Assembly: GCF_018132105.1 (NCBI RefSeq)
Contig: NZ_JWHL01000010.1
Span: 1-64,000, forward strand
Reading direction: 5' to 3'
From: Methanocalculus chunghsingensis
Lineage (GTDB): Archaea; Halobacteriota; Methanomicrobia; Methanomicrobiales; Methanocorpusculaceae
DNA length: 64,000 bases
Positions 54,244-63,468 of this stretch are shown piece by piece. How positions within the stretch are numbered: the first letter of the stretch is position 1; every line of letters begins with the position of its first letter. The notes under the pieces were generated by a model. It had not been told where the DNA came from and did no database searches. It saw only the letters and a program-made list of their open reading frames with translations. Both the position numbers and the translations under genes were made by a program.

Positions 54244-55560
54244 TTATTTCAACAGGCCATGCTCCTCATCGAAGATGAAGACGAATGCCCGCCCTCTCTT
54301 CTCCTTCCGGAGGTACCCTTTCTCCACAAGCATGAGGAGATCGGTTCTTGCGGTCTCGTAGACGACGTCGTGCATCTGCATGACATGACGGATGGTGAAA
54401 TATCTCTCTGGCTGTTCCATCATGGTGCGGAGAATATCTGCCTGGCGCTCATTGATCCCCTGTACCTTCCTGATGATGGCTGACGTCTTCTTCTGATCCG
54501 ACTGCTTCTCTTCAATATACCGGAGCAGGTCATCACGGGCTTCATTGATGCATGCGATGTTGTAGTTGATGAAGTAGGTCAGATCCATCTCATCGTACCG
54601 GGTATGCAGATAGGCGAGGGAGTAACGCTTCTTCGATCTCTGGATGGCTCGTGAGATCGCCATATATTCAAAGAGCCAGTAGCCCCTTGAAAGCACATAC
54701 CAGTAGAAGATGGTCCTGGCGGTCCTCCCGTTGCCATCTGCGAAGGGGTGGATATACCCGATAAGATAGTGGAGGATGATCCCCTTGATGATCGGGTGGA
54801 TGAAGATAGCGGCCGGGTTCCCTGATTCGTACTCATCATCATTTGCAAACCGGCAGAATGCTGCGATCATCTCCTCGATATCCTGATGATCAGGGGGTGT
54901 ATGCTGGATTGTTCCGGTGACGGCATCGACAACGACGATCTTGTTATTGTCACGGAACGTTCCGACTTCCGCATCACTGATAGTCCGCGTGGTGACGATC
55001 TTCTGAATGTCGGAGATCATCTCCCGTGAGATCGGCTCATCCTTCTTTGTACGGATATACTGCATCACCTCATAGTTGTTGATGACCATCTGCTCATCGG
55101 TATTCTTTGCCTTTTTTCTGGAGATGAGCAGCTCCTGCGCCTTCTTCCGGGTTGTTACTGCTCCTTCGAGGATGCTTGATGCAATCGCCTCTTCCATCAT
55201 GGAGTTGATGATATAGGATTTTTCGAGCCGGATCTCCCGGTTGTTGATCCTGATGATGCCGGAGAGGTACCGGTCATAGGTATGCAGGTTCTTTGCGATC
55301 TCCGGGGTGAGGGAGTAGACGAGCCGGAGCGGAGGATAGGGAATCGTCTCGTACCGGAGCCTTCGGTGAGCTTTCATCAGTTGCCAGATGAGTTCCCTCC
55401 GGTTCGTATCCGACACCCTGTATATCAGCTCATCCCAATAGAGGTATCTTCGGTTATAATCACGCACCTCGTCTTCGAGCTCCTCATCTCCGGAGGGTGC
55501 AGTAACCAGAGAGTGTAATGGTATTCTGTCTGATGGTGGTTTTTGAGGGGTATTCTTCAT
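54244..55560 (-). CDS. Fic-domain protein with C-terminal winged helix
   Basis: Predicted AMP-transferase (or related nucleotidyl transferase) of 438 residues. The active-site motif HPFADGNGR is at 271-279, intact with its histidine. The self-inhibitory motif SSILEG at 128-133 marks an N-terminal inhibited (class II) Fic protein, and a winged helix lies at about 368-430 (INERQADILRTMM, YETARTDLLMLVEKGYLRKEKRGR). Targets are unknown. The promoter region carries two copies of one inverted repeat, so the protein may control its own gene through the winged helix. Confidence 0.9.
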   Translation of the reverse strand: MKNTPQKPPSDRIPLHSLVTAPSGDEELEDEVRDYNRRYLYWDELIYRVSDTNRRELIWQLMKAHRRLRYETIPYPPLRLVYSLTPEIAKNLHTYDRYLSGIIRINNREIRLEKSYIINSMMEEAIASSILEGAVTTRKKAQELLISRKKAKNTDEQMVINNYEVMQYIRTKKDEPISREMISDIQKIVTTRTISDAEVGTFRDNNKIVVVDAVTGTIQHTPPDHQDIEEMIAAFCRFANDDEYESGNPAAIFIHPIIKGIILHYLIGYIHPFADGNGRTARTIFYWYVLSRGYWLFEYMAISRAIQRSKKRYSLAYLHTRYDEMDLTYFINYNIACINEARDDLLRYIEEKQSDQKKTSAIIRKVQGINERQADILRTMMEQPERYFTIRHVMQMHDVVYETARTDLLMLVEKGYLRKEKRGRAFVFIFDEEHGLLK

Positions 55561-57837: not shown

Positions 57838-57958
57838 GTGTCAGAAGTGCTGACACCCCGGTATCCGGGAGTACGATAAACAATCTATTTATGCGACACC
57901 TGCGAATAGAGTAAGGTCAGTGAGCTTTATTGTCACTGGTTGTCAGTGTTTATCACTG
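57838..57958. repeat. Cluster of CAGTG/CACTG palindromes upstream of tRNA-Ala
   Basis: Three inverted repeats lie close together: GTGTCAG-AAGTG-CTGACAC (57838-57856), CAGTGA-N9-TCACTG (57918-57938) and CAGTG-TTTAT-CACTG (57944-57958), the last ending on the first base of the tRNA. The shared core suggests one binding protein or hairpins in the tRNA leader. The first, 30 bases after the phosphoribosyltransferase stop, could also act as a 3' hairpin. Confidence 0.55.
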
Positions 57959-58029
57959 GGCCGATAGATCAGGGGTAGATCGCTACCTTGGCATGGTAGA
58001 GGCCGCGGGTTCAATTCCCGCTCGGTCCA
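57958..58029 (+). tRNA. tRNA-Ala (anticodon GGC)
   Basis: Acceptor GGGCCGA pairs with TCGGTCC, including the G3-U70 pair that identifies alanine tRNAs. Anticodon stem CTACC/GGTAG with loop TTGGCAT gives anticodon GGC; T arm GCGGG-TTCAATT-CCCGC. Discriminator A, no encoded CCA, no intron, 72 bases. Strongly AT-rich foreign-looking DNA begins right after it, so it may mark an integration site. Confidence 0.95.
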
Positions 58030-58037
58030 TTTAATTT

Positions 58038-58901
58038 TCATAAAGGTTGTGTATTTACAAGTTTTCTGATCTCTGTTGAATTAGGAATCGTTATCCTCTC
58101 AATTTTTTTCATATTGATAGATTTGATATTTTTTCTTCTCTCTTGTTTAAATTGAGGATATCTTTCTATTACATTCTCTCTAGTATTGCCATCAACAATA
58201 CTTTGTATTTGACTTGCAGAAAAAATGGAGTATTCTTCTGGTTTTCCAAACCATGTATTATTGTACCTTTTTACGTCCATTAAATGGTAAACATAGTAGT
58301 TTGTCGGATCGAAAAAATACCATTTATCATGGACTTCAACCTCCACCCAAGCATGATTATTTTTTGTTAATGTAGCTCTTATAGCTCTTGTATTATAACC
58401 TGATTTATTCGCGACATCTTCAAATAAAACTGCAAGTTCTCCACAACCTCCCATTTTATAATAAGCAATCCAATATGGGTTATTCGCATATTCATTAGGT
58501 ATACGAAAAACTTGAGAGATAGGCGAATGCACTTCAGGCCGTATTTTACCATATGAATCGTATAAATAGCGATTAATTGGATGATCTAAATATTCTTTTG
58601 TATAATTTGGATTGAAATACTCCTTTTCAAAAAGGATGTAGGTAAAATTTGCAGATACCCATTCTGCTATTGCCTCTAACTTTTCCGTATCATTATCAAT
58701 AGCTTCGGTTTTGTTTACAATGGAGCATATTTCCCGTACCCCTATAGGATAAATTTCATTTTCGTATTGAATTGAAAAATATGAATCAATTTGTTCAGCA
58801 GATTGGCTAATCGTTATAAAAAAAAGTAAAATAATATATAAAAAAACAATTATTACAAAAATAACATTCATTAATATTTTATTATGTTTATTTATAGACA
58901 T
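58038..58901 (-). CDS. Membrane-anchored transglutaminase-like protein
   Basis: A 287-residue protein with an N-terminal membrane helix (about 9-32) and an outer domain of the transglutaminase/protease fold. The catalytic triad is visible: C153 in KMGGCGELAVLF, H183 in NNHAWVEVEV and D198 in YFFDPTN. Such domains act as proteases, peptidases or cross-linking enzymes; the substrate here is unknown. The gene is AT-rich like the reverse transcriptase beside it, and the two are divergent. It probably entered by transfer. Confidence 0.78.
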   Translation of the reverse strand: MSINKHNKILMNVIFVIIVFLYIILLFFITISQSAEQIDSYFSIQYENEIYPIGVREICSIVNKTEAIDNDTEKLEAIAEWVSANFTYILFEKEYFNPNYTKEYLDHPINRYLYDSYGKIRPEVHSPISQVFRIPNEYANNPYWIAYYKMGGCGELAVLFEDVANKSGYNTRAIRATLTKNNHAWVEVEVHDKWYFFDPTNYYVYHLMDVKRYNNTWFGKPEEYSIFSASQIQSIVDGNTRENVIERYPQFKQERRKNIKSINMKKIERITIPNSTEIRKLVNTQPL

Positions 58902-59030
58902 TTTTAATCATAGTTAATTGTGAATTGGTTAAATATCTACTCGTTGTAAAAAAAGGATAAGATCTTATAAAAATATATCCTATGTATGATATCACACACC
59001 TAATCTACTGTGTATAAATGAAATATTTAT
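58902..59030. promoter_or_regulatory. AT-rich spacer upstream of the reverse transcriptase
   Basis: A divergent intergenic stretch with TATA-like elements, including GTGTATAAATGAAATA at 59010-59025. AGGATA (58957-58962) and TATCCT (58977-58982) flank a possible hairpin. Some defence reverse transcriptases use a non-coding RNA encoded just upstream; this 129-base spacer has room for a short one, but I see no convincing fold. Confidence 0.35.
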
Positions 59031-60632
59031 ATGAAATCAAATCATCTCAAAATTATGGTTATTTTACAGAGATTATTGGGATATGGATATTTCCCTGCTG
59101 ATCTACCCCCTCCTTTTAATACAAAAAAATTTGCATCAACCTTTTCTTCCTCTGATGTTAAGAGATGGGAAGACATGGTGATTTCCTGGTCTAATTCAAG
59201 AAATAATAAAATTGAAAGTAGATGTTGTATTTATTCAAAACCTAGGTTTCATAATATACGACGTAATTTTAGTATTCCCAATCCTTTGTACCACGCAATT
59301 TTGTGCAATCATATAGAGAGAAATTGGGGTGAAATTAGTAATTTTATAGCTCAGTCCCAATTATCTATCAGCCGCCCAATTATTCCCATTCAATTCAAAA
59401 AAGCCTCGCGTTCTTTTGAGCAAATGGCTGATTCCTTCAATCAAAAGGAAAAAGTTGTATTGGAATCATCCATTTTTCGTGTGATGCTCAAAGCTGATAT
59501 TTCTCGTTATTATAATTCTCTCTATACACATAGTATACCTTGGGCATTACATGGAAAGCAAAAAGCAAAAAAACAAAGAGGTAATGCACTTTGTGGAAAT
59601 CTCCTTGATAAATGGGTAAGAAGCCTTCGTGATGGGCAAACATTAGGGATTCCCGTTGGTCCTGATAGCTCTTTAATTATTTCAGAAATACTTGGAACAG
59701 CGATAGAAATGGATTTGAAAAATTCAGGTGTAAGTTTAAAAGGAGTTAGATATATAGATGATTTTACATTATTTTTTAGAGATAAAAAAGAGGCTTATGA
59801 TGCACTCACAAAATTACACAATATATTAAATAAATACGAGTTGGAAATAAATCCACAAAAGACAATTATTGACGAGGCCCCCTTTATCTTTGAGCCAGAT
59901 TGGGTTTCATATATAAGACAATATTCTTTTAGAGAAATAAATAAAAAACATGGAATACAAAGCCAAAGAACCGATATTATTGATTTCTTTAGTAGATCTT
60001 TTGAGTATGATAGTCGATATGAAAATAAAAATGTACTTTTATACGCAATTAAAAGATTTGCAAAAGTGAATATATTAAAGGAAAATTGGGGTTTAACTGA
60101 GTCATTATTATTAAAAACAATAATTCTCAACGGAACCTGTATACCTTGGGTTATAAAAATAATATTAGAATATAAAAATAAAAACTATCCTGTTGATAAT
60201 GATAATTTACAAACCGCAATCAATGAAATAATTTTATATCATTCCCAATATGGACATGATTATGAAATAACATGGGCTTTATGGTTTTCATACCAGTTAA
60301 ACCTGAATATTCCTCCGGAAATTAATCAATTCATTGAAAATAACATCAATCCAATAGTTATAATTATGGCTTTATTCTTGAGAGATAACGGTTTAATTAA
60401 AGATATTAATATTTCAAATTGGGAAAAATATATGACTTCAGACAATTTATATGATGAATATTGGTTATTAGCTTATGAAGCAAATATAAAGGGATGGTTG
60501 TCTATATCTGGCAATAATTATCTTGATCAGGATCCATTTTATAAAGAATTAAAAGATAAAAATATTGTTTTTTTTGAAGAAGATTACACATCTATAGAAC
60601 CCCCGTCAGAAGAATATATGTTTAAATTTTAA
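59031..60632 (+). CDS. Stand-alone reverse transcriptase, defence-associated type
   Basis: A 533-residue polymerase. The RT core has motif A with the catalytic aspartate D156 in KADISRYYNSLYTHSIPWAL (154-173), motif B GIPVGPDSSLIISEIL (206-221), the catalytic YIDD (241-244) and LEINPQKT (271-278). GIPVGP-x-x-S is the form seen in Abi and 'unknown group' RTs used in phage defence, not in group II introns; no maturase, HNH or intron structure is present. Residues 290-533 are a helical extension of unknown role. Codon use is strongly AT-rich, unlike the chromosome. DRT subtype cannot be settled here. Confidence 0.85.
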   Translation: MKSNHLKIMVILQRLLGYGYFPADLPPPFNTKKFASTFSSSDVKRWEDMVISWSNSRNNKIESRCCIYSKPRFHNIRRNFSIPNPLYHAILCNHIERNWGEISNFIAQSQLSISRPIIPIQFKKASRSFEQMADSFNQKEKVVLESSIFRVMLKADISRYYNSLYTHSIPWALHGKQKAKKQRGNALCGNLLDKWVRSLRDGQTLGIPVGPDSSLIISEILGTAIEMDLKNSGVSLKGVRYIDDFTLFFRDKKEAYDALTKLHNILNKYELEINPQKTIIDEAPFIFEPDWVSYIRQYSFREINKKHGIQSQRTDIIDFFSRSFEYDSRYENKNVLLYAIKRFAKVNILKENWGLTESLLLKTIILNGTCIPWVIKIILEYKNKNYPVDNDNLQTAINEIILYHSQYGHDYEITWALWFSYQLNLNIPPEINQFIENNINPIVIIMALFLRDNGLIKDINISNWEKYMTSDNLYDEYWLLAYEANIKGWLSISGNNYLDQDPFYKELKDKNIVFFEEDYTSIEPPSEEYMFKF

Positions 60633-60676
60633 TAAATAAAGTCATTATTTTATTATATCTATTTTCTTCTATTCTC

Positions 60677-60895
60677 TCACCATCCCAGCCCACCTCCCAC
60701 CAACCGCCCCGAGAACGCCTGTTCCAGAATTGACTGCCGGAGCTGCTTGGTGCGTTCCTGTGTTGTAGTGACACGGGCTTCGATCTGATCTGCAAATGCA
60801 AGGAGGGTGTTGACCCGGCGGACGATTTCTTCTTGTTCGAGGAAAGGGGAGCTGTCAGCTCCATCGCCCCCGATATCTACAATAATTGAGCACAA
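60677..60895 (-). pseudogene. 3' fragment of a type I restriction specificity gene (hsdS)
   Basis: The minus strand encodes EQEEIVRRVNTLLAFADQIEARVTTTQERTKQLRQSILEQAFSGRLV, the conserved C-terminal coiled coil of HsdS, ending at its natural stop (60677). Upstream of about 60855 the similarity ends: the two target-recognition domains are missing. The fragment points opposite to hsdM. It could be a leftover, or a partial cassette able to recombine with an intact hsdS elsewhere. Confidence 0.8.
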
Positions 60896-61023: not shown

Positions 61024-63468
61024 ATGGCACTCAAAAAGACCCAACTCTATAGCTCACTCTGGCAGAGCTGCGATGAACTCCGTGGCGGCATGGATGCCTC
61101 TCAGTACAAGGATTACATCCTCACCCTCCTCTTCATGAAGTATGTCTCCGATAAGAGCGAGCGTGATCGGAGTTCTGTCATCGAAGTCCCCGAAGGCGGC
61201 GGCTTCTCTGATATGGTCCGGCTGAAAGGGGACAAGGAGATCGGGGATCGGATCAATAAGATCATCAGCAGGCTTGCAGAAGCAAACGATCTCAAGGGTG
61301 TCATCGATCTCGCCGACTTTAATGACGAATCCAGACTCGGCACCGGCAAGGAGATGCAGGACCGGCTCTCAAAACTGATCGCCATCTTCGATTCGCTCGA
61401 TTTCAGTACAAATGGTGCCGAAGGAGACGATCTCCTCGGTGATGCCTACGAATACCTGATGCGAAACTTTGCGACCGAGTCCGGCAAGAGCAAAGGGCAG
61501 TTCTACACCCCGGCCGAGGTTTCACGCATTATTGCAAAGGTGGTCGGGATCGGTCCCAATACCCGCCAGGATCAGACGATCTATGATCCCACCTGCGGCT
61601 CCGGCTCACTGCTCCTGAAGGCGGCAGAAGAAGCACCCCGTGGCATCTCGATCTATGGGCAGGAGATGGACAATGCCACCTGGTCGCTTGCCCGGATGAA
61701 TATGTTCCTCCACAATTACCCGACCCATGTTATCTGGCGGGGGAACACCCTCTCCTCCCCGCACTTCAAAAACGACGACGGCGGCCTGATGACCTTCGAC
61801 TTTGCCGTCGCCAATCCCCCCTTCTCGTCAAAGGCATGGACGAGCGGCCTTGACCCCGACCATGATCCATTCGGCCGCTTCGATCCCGGTGTGCCGCCGT
61901 CAAAGAATGGCGATTATGCCTTCCTCCTCCACCTGATCAAGTCCTTGAAAAGCACCGGGAAAGGGGCGATTATCCTCCCGCATGGCGTCCTCTTCCGGGG
62001 GAACAAGGAGGGTGATATCCGGAGAAACCTCATCAAACGGGGGTACATCAAAGGGATCATTGGCCTGCCTGCCAATCTCTTCTATGGAACCGGCATTCCT
62101 GCCTGTATCATCGTCATCGACAAGGAGAATGCCCATGTCAGAACCGGCATCTTCATGATCGATGCGTCAAAGGGGTATGCAAAGGACGGGAACAAGAACC
62201 GGCTCCGGTCACAGGATATCCATAAGATCGTGGATCTCTTCAAAAACGTAATCGAGCTTCCCGGCTACTCCCGGATGGTTCCGATTGCAGAGATTGCCGA
62301 TCCGGCAAATGACTATAACCTCAATATCCCCCGGTATATCGATTCCAGTGATCCGGAGGATCTCCATGATCTCAATGCCCATATGAACGGCGGCATTCCA
62401 AACCGTGATATCGATGCCCTGGAAGAGTACTGGGCGGTCTTCCCGACGCTCCAAAATGAGCTCTTCAGGGACAACGGTCGGCCCGGGTACTCGGAGCCGA
62501 AGATTGAAGCCCGCGAGGTCAGGGGGGTGATCCTCGCCCATCCCGAGTTTAAAGCATATGCAAGCCGGATTGCAGAAATCTTCCGCGAATGGCGATCCGT
62601 CCATGAGCCTCTGCTGAATGGCCTTTCATCTGAACATAAGACCAAAGAAGTGATCCATGTCCTCTCTGAAGATCTCCTGAAGCGGTATGCCAACCTCCCG
62701 CTCCTGAGCAGGTACGATGTCTACCAGCGGCTGATGGATTACTGGGCAGAAGTGATGCAGGATGATGTTGGGATGATCATCGCCGATGGCTGGGTTGAGG
62801 CGGCCCGCCCCCGTGGGATCATCGAGGATAAGGAGCGGAAGATCAAGGAGACGCCGGATCTGGTCGTCAACCGGAAGAAGTACAAGATGGATCTCGTTCC
62901 CCCCTCTCTCATCATCTCCCGGTACTCTGCAGATGGGCAGGAGGCAATCGACCATCTTCGGATGGAACAGGAGAATGCCGCCCGCGAGCTTGAGGAGTTC
63001 ATCGAGGAGCATACTGGCGAGGAGGGGCTGCTTGAGGATGCAAAGGGTGATGCCGGGAAGATCGCAAAAGGTGATCTCAGCAAAAGGCTCAAAGAGATCG
63101 GCCGCGATCCCGAGTATGCCGACGAAAGGGACGCCCTGAAACGCTGCCTTGCCCTGATGGATGCAGAGTCAGAGGCAGGTAAGGCGGTCAAGACGGCCCA
63201 GGCAACCCTTGATGCAGCGGTGCTCGCCAGGTACCCGAAACTCAAAGAGGATGAGATCAAGGCTCTCGTCATCGAAGACAAATGGTTCACCTCCATCTGC
63301 TCGGCAATCGAGGGCGAGGTCCAGCAGGCGACCCAGCGGCTCGCCACCCGCGTAAAAGAGCTGGATGAGCGGTATGCCGCTCCAATGCCTCTGCTTGAGC
63401 GTGAGGTGGAGGAGTACGCGGCGAAGGTCGGGGAGAATCTGAGGCGGATGGGGGTTGCGTGGGAGTGA
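61024..63468 (+). CDS. hsdM: Type I restriction-modification DNA methyltransferase subunit
   Basis: N6-adenine methyltransferase subunit of 814 residues. The N-terminal helical domain (1-150) precedes the catalytic domain with motif I DPTCGSGSLLL (188-198) and motif IV NPPF (264-267); GQFYTPAEVSRII is also typical. The C-terminal 330 residues are long and include charged coiled coils (about 640-780), well beyond a usual 500-residue HsdM. Methylation needs an intact HsdS, which is not in the window. The next gene overlaps its stop by four bases. Confidence 0.9.
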   Translation: MALKKTQLYSSLWQSCDELRGGMDASQYKDYILTLLFMKYVSDKSERDRSSVIEVPEGGGFSDMVRLKGDKEIGDRINKIISRLAEANDLKGVIDLADFNDESRLGTGKEMQDRLSKLIAIFDSLDFSTNGAEGDDLLGDAYEYLMRNFATESGKSKGQFYTPAEVSRIIAKVVGIGPNTRQDQTIYDPTCGSGSLLLKAAEEAPRGISIYGQEMDNATWSLARMNMFLHNYPTHVIWRGNTLSSPHFKNDDGGLMTFDFAVANPPFSSKAWTSGLDPDHDPFGRFDPGVPPSKNGDYAFLLHLIKSLKSTGKGAIILPHGVLFRGNKEGDIRRNLIKRGYIKGIIGLPANLFYGTGIPACIIVIDKENAHVRTGIFMIDASKGYAKDGNKNRLRSQDIHKIVDLFKNVIELPGYSRMVPIAEIADPANDYNLNIPRYIDSSDPEDLHDLNAHMNGGIPNRDIDALEEYWAVFPTLQNELFRDNGRPGYSEPKIEAREVRGVILAHPEFKAYASRIAEIFREWRSVHEPLLNGLSSEHKTKEVIHVLSEDLLKRYANLPLLSRYDVYQRLMDYWAEVMQDDVGMIIADGWVEAARPRGIIEDKERKIKETPDLVVNRKKYKMDLVPPSLIISRYSADGQEAIDHLRMEQENAARELEEFIEEHTGEEGLLEDAKGDAGKIAKGDLSKRLKEIGRDPEYADERDALKRCLALMDAESEAGKAVKTAQATLDAAVLARYPKLKEDEIKALVIEDKWFTSICSAIEGEVQQATQRLATRVKELDERYAAPMPLLEREVEEYAAKVGENLRRMGVAWE

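Follow-up and report, generated by a model that had tools for sequence, protein, structure and literature searches.

The described system closest to the reverse transcriptase (RT) reported here is DRT6 (UG12), of which the solved representative 9wy8 ("Cryo-EM structure of the hexameric DRT6") is the best PDB relative of our protein both by sequence and by fold. DRT4 (UG15; 9vdo, 9l9s and 21ou), AbiK (7r06) and Abi-P2 (7r08) are more distant. Protein-primed, untemplated synthesis has been demonstrated for AbiK, in which the DNA grows from Tyr44, and the helical domain of AbiK replaces the template strand and is needed for the contacts of the trimer or hexamer (PMC9508834). The name HEAT-like alpha-repeat domain was given to this type of domain in the Class 1 UG RTs by a 2026 preprint (PMC13174585). 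In two reviews (PMC13213688, PMC13314766), DRT4 is described as making random ssDNA, DRT4 and DRT6 are both linked to phage ORF55, and the DRT6 product is called less resolved than the DRT4 product. The known trigger is a phage protein.

The RT analyzed here lies in the window, i.e., the whole 64,000-nucleotide stretch of Methanocalculus chunghsingensis DNA under study. It agrees with DRT6 in its full-length match, fold, combination of an RT and a helical domain, apparent single-gene layout, and catalytic motifs, whereas its host is archaeal and its identity to 9wy8 is ∼30%. The architecture, fold, and single-gene layout are shared with DRT4 as well, but the identity is lower (23-24%) and DRT4 is on a separate branch. 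AbiK and Abi-P2 likewise join an RT domain to a unique helical domain; however, they are 15-21% identical to the window RT, AbiK is ∼600 aa long, and no conserved Tyr of the window RT could be paired with its Tyr44 loop.

Composition and boundaries of the slot between tRNA-Ala and hsdM

The sequence-only reading had described an AT-rich stretch running from tRNA-Ala to about 60.66 kb, which carries a membrane-anchored transglutaminase-like gene and a 533-residue RT with GIPVGP and YIDD motifs, and our analysis agrees on each of these points (Table 1). The GC content is 0.62-0.71 before tRNA-Ala, 0.24-0.35 over 58.0-60.7 kb, and 0.51-0.59 from 60.75 kb, and each of the two genes is 29% GC against 50-70% in the flanks. 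The transglutaminase-like ORF has an N-terminal hydrophobic stretch and exceeds the Pfam cut-off for Transglut_core (38 vs 23 bits). The RT carries both motifs and exceeds the Pfam cut-off for RVT_1; no other RVT_1 match occurs in the genome (2.13 Mb). The nearby hsd genes and the defence-island reading drawn from them also stood, with the correction that the genes form a complete type I restriction-modification locus, in which hsdM starts 392 bp past the RT stop codon, hsdS lies at contig positions 65449-66720, and hsdR at 72819-75980. Orthologs of this hsdM are 91-93% identical in G003, G004, and G007. Two ATP-binding proteins of the AlbA type and an AAA ATPase, as judged by eye, are encoded between hsdS and hsdR (contig C13, 68287-72829; L003:4287-8829).

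Table 1. Features of the tRNA-Ala/hsdM slot and its edges (positions in the window)
Feature	Position	Strand	Remarks
tRNA-Ala (GGC)	57957-58030	+	constant left boundary of the variable slot in the examined members of the genus
Transglutaminase-like gene, membrane-anchored	58038-58901	-	287 aa; apparently a passenger of the hotspot separate from the DRT6 system
RT assigned to DRT6/UG12	59031-60632	+	533 aa, or 525 aa if translated from M9 at 59055
Possible archaeal TATA box	59023-59030	+	ATTTATAT, ∼28 nt upstream of the M9 ATG; would fit a leaderless transcript near M9
hsdS-like gene, C-terminal piece	60677-60895	-	resembles the HsdS C-terminal repeat (LRQSILEQAFSGRLV)
hsdM, type I restriction-modification locus	61024-63468	+	conserved right flank; PADLOC MTase_I 1303 bits

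DNA common to the window, G007, and G003 begins at 60695-60698, and by this alignment the right edge of the exchanged segment is at ∼60695, within the hsdS-like piece. This piece, inverted just upstream of hsdM, had no Pfam match, differs from the full hsdS gene, and is remnant-like. The 3′ end of the tRNA was searched for as a repeat at the right edge and was not found there, so an att site or an integrase-type island is not supported. The true start of the RT may be M9 rather than the first codon of the ORF, as suggested by the equivalent Met that opens the family consensus and by the TATA-like TTTATA upstream of it. The 129-nt gap upstream of the RT folds no better than shuffled sequences.

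Assignment of the RT to DRT6

In PADLOC, the Drt6 model (546 bits) and the Drt4-labelled model PDLC02177 (570 bits) both covered about the full length of the RT. Another Drt4-labelled model, likewise matched over the full length, reached 487 bits, and the scores for other UG groups were at most 285 bits (285 bits for a UG15-type model and 248 bits for UG30). To settle this conflict of labels, the aligned sequence portions of two solved proteins were run against the models. The top model of the solved DRT6 (9wy8) was the Drt4-labelled PDLC02179, followed by Drt6, and those of the solved UG15 (21ou) were PDLC02180 and PDLC03752; on these scores, PDLC02177 and PDLC02179 are on the DRT6 side, whatever their name says. 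The 'Drt4' labels on these two models may mislead annotation. In a tree of 117 rows, built by a quick method with SH-aLRT as the only support measure, the window RT has a long branch and forms a group with those of G082 and G038 (support 99 and 96); a further archaeal RT and RTs of Bacillota and cyanobacteria lie nearby. The larger UG12 set includes the solved DRT6 and excludes UG15.

The fold points in the same direction. The AlphaFold model, for which 59 aligned sequences were used, had a pLDDT of 92.9 and a pTM of 0.92, with residues 308-509 almost wholly alpha-helical. In Foldseek, 9wy8 (E 4e-35, TM 0.87/0.94, 2.3 Å over 513 columns) was followed by UG15/DRT4 (TM ∼0.8), AbiK (0.64-0.66), and Abi-P2 (0.56-0.61); a search of viral folds in BFVD gave generic RT/RdRp matches only. 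From these fold matches, the C-terminal ∼240 residues, an extension that the sequence-only reading could not place, are predicted to be the alpha-helical domain typical of the AbiK/DRT4/DRT6 branch.

The ORF is intact, with an RT domain at ∼15-285 that includes D156 and YIDD (241-244) and a helical domain at ∼290-515. Across the 59 aligned sequences, D156, Y165, G206, G210, R240, D243, and K277 are invariant and D244 is kept in 58; the polymerase motifs required of DRT6 (the motif A Asp and YxDD) are therefore present and intact. Tyr482 is Tyr in 57 of 58 sequences, and in 13 of the 58 members, Phe or Leu occupies the position of the N-terminal Tyr20. When AbiK Tyr44 was sought among the conserved tyrosines of the window RT family, no match mapped. 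Judged from its sequence relatives and modelled structure, the window RT belongs to DRT6 (UG12), a family already known, of which it is an archaeal representative, although the ∼30% identity to the solved DRT6 tempers this reading. The suggestion that the locus holds an undescribed system was thus not borne out, as the RT agrees with DRT6, whose hexamer is already solved, in family, fold, and C-terminal domain, and the tree placement proposed as a check put the RT with DRT6/UG12, apart from DRT4/UG15.

Distribution of homologues and contents of the slot

A scan of genome contigs with the single sequence gave no relatives, whereas an alignment query of the GTDB species set gave 562 stretches encoding a relative. 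The 80 relatives kept are mostly bacterial and represent many phyla. Viral contigs gave a separate 33 loci, some of them being other RT groups. Among 393 genomes of the host phylum, five had a strong match: four are UG12/DRT6 RTs, the window RT included, and one is an AbiP2 RT (661 bits; L177:583-2121, minus strand, contig C217 of G330) which was initially counted as an archaeal DRT6. Another archaeal DRT6 homologue is at L113. A full-length match was found in 3 of 150 searched relatives, including the window genome, and in one of the eight genus genomes. By these sequence searches, archaeal DRT6 is rare and the window case has company, in line with the earlier expectation that archaeal examples are few.

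The slot was variable among the sister species. In G007, whose flanks are ∼90-93% identical, tRNA-Ala is separated from the shared right flank by 468 bp of different DNA, with neither the transglutaminase nor the RT gene. In G003, the same tRNA is followed by an ortholog of the transglutaminase gene (78% aa identity), no RT, and then ∼8.7 kb of other genes up to the shared right flank, among which (L179:3974-12123) are Csa3/CARF-like, HEPN, and MNT genes and an AIPR/AbiU gene. The slot after the same tRNA carries a type II restriction enzyme, a DNA methyltransferase, and a type IV restriction enzyme in G002, and an MNT gene with a small gene alongside in G005. From these comparisons, the tRNA-Ala/hsdM slot is best described as a tRNA-linked defence hotspot that swaps systems among sister species. 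The defence context looked for in a DRT6 gene is present both as the type I restriction-modification locus next door and as the defence genes of the sister slots, and the hotspot contents agree with the earlier view of a stand-alone defence-type RT in a defence context. The G003 slot also has two adjacent viperin-like radical SAM genes (pVip), the second of which is shorter and more divergent.

In the flanks of homologous RTs (93 genes at 48 loci), Gabija-type GajB/UvrD, GajA, DNA methylases, and other defence families recur, as a raw recurrence. Inspection by eye found hsdR, hsdS, and hsdM beside the RT in G227, and in G038, IetA and IetS are ∼2.4 kb from the RT. A Fic-domain protein is encoded at 54244-55560 (minus strand) in the window, 3.5 kb from the RT, and a 59% identical homolog is 1 kb from the G038 RT (L119:6696-8003). 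This proximity of Fic at both RTs is probably due to chance; other genes intervene in the window.

Alternative explanations

The top PADLOC model, named Drt4, would make the protein a DRT4 (UG15) RT. We consider this very unlikely and rejected it on the PADLOC model check, in which the solved UG15 prefers other models, on the NCBIfam Drt4 score of the window RT (257 bits vs a cut-off of 450 bits), and on the tree and fold, to which the low identity to UG15 can be added. An RT of a group II intron, a retron, or another mobile element is a negligible prospect: weak profile matches do exist (group II RT 39.8 bits, retron St85 18.6 bits), but their cut-offs are 300 and 235 bits, and these classes and DGR RTs reach a TMq of only 0.27-0.39 in Foldseek. 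In a scan for described RNA families in Rfam, the tRNA alone was above the threshold, with no intron or retron RNA. Neither a maturase or nuclease domain in the RT (Pfam) nor convincing terminal repeats around it were found. Group II intron and retron identities were rejected on the profiles, the Rfam scan, and the poor fold match, in agreement with the stand-alone RT of the sequence-only reading.

The transglutaminase-like membrane protein could be an effector or partner of the RT in a two-gene system, the two genes being adjacent, divergent, and of equal GC content, and in G082 a transglutaminase-like gene is upstream of the RT too. The G082 protein, however, is not significantly similar to that of the window (E 0.43) and is encoded on the same strand as its RT; the G003 ortholog occurs without an RT; no transglutaminase gene adjoins the RT in G038 or G227; and Transglut_core is beside one of the 48 homologous loci (L039), as a protein that is not significantly similar to that of the window. 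The pairing is hence largely refuted and now highly improbable, and the survey of its conservation that had been proposed leaves the gene as an unrelated neighbour. On this sequence evidence, the AT-rich island comprises two passengers of the hotspot that were acquired separately, and not one unit. The sporadic presence of full-length matches and the long branch could also suggest that the DRT6 homolog is in decay or now serves another host function; this is unlikely, given the intact ORF, the conserved catalytic residues, and the surrounding defence hotspot.

Proposed function and significance

The reading we prefer, and hold as likely, is a one-gene antiviral system, namely an untemplated, infection-triggered DNA polymerase of the AbiK/DRT4/DRT6 branch, which was probably transferred into the tRNA-Ala/hsdM hotspot. 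The family, the fold, the intact catalytic residues, the apparent single-gene layout, and the hotspot are observed; the oligomer, the untemplated and protein-primed synthesis, the trigger, and the cell arrest are proposed by analogy with the DRT4, DRT6, and AbiK literature. The RT probably arrived in the slot by horizontal transfer. Its RT and helical domains would form a trimer or hexamer with the helical domain in the place of the template, and infection would set off DNA synthesis that uses no nucleic-acid template and for which one of the RT's own tyrosines is probably the primer. A viral DNA-binding protein would then either stabilise the product DNA or be sequestered by it, and the infected cell would be stopped. 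We know of no archaeal virus trigger. It is conceivable, though doubtful, that the archaeal DRT6 branch has a chemistry or trigger of its own, such as a DNA product whose pattern the protein dictates, or activation by a DNA-binding protein, distinct from ORF55, that an archaeal virus encodes.

In essence, DRT6 is documented here in methanogenic archaea and no new kind of system is added. The small supported archaeal clade beside bacterial members points to transfer from bacteria, and the tRNA-Ala/hsdM hotspot appears to exchange defence systems among sister species. Little has yet been described of the DRT6 mechanism, and its essential residues could be easier to find with the help of a distant archaeal homolog. 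If the archaeal branch does have its own chemistry or trigger, it could be the first demonstrated case in archaea of immunity through untemplated DNA synthesis.
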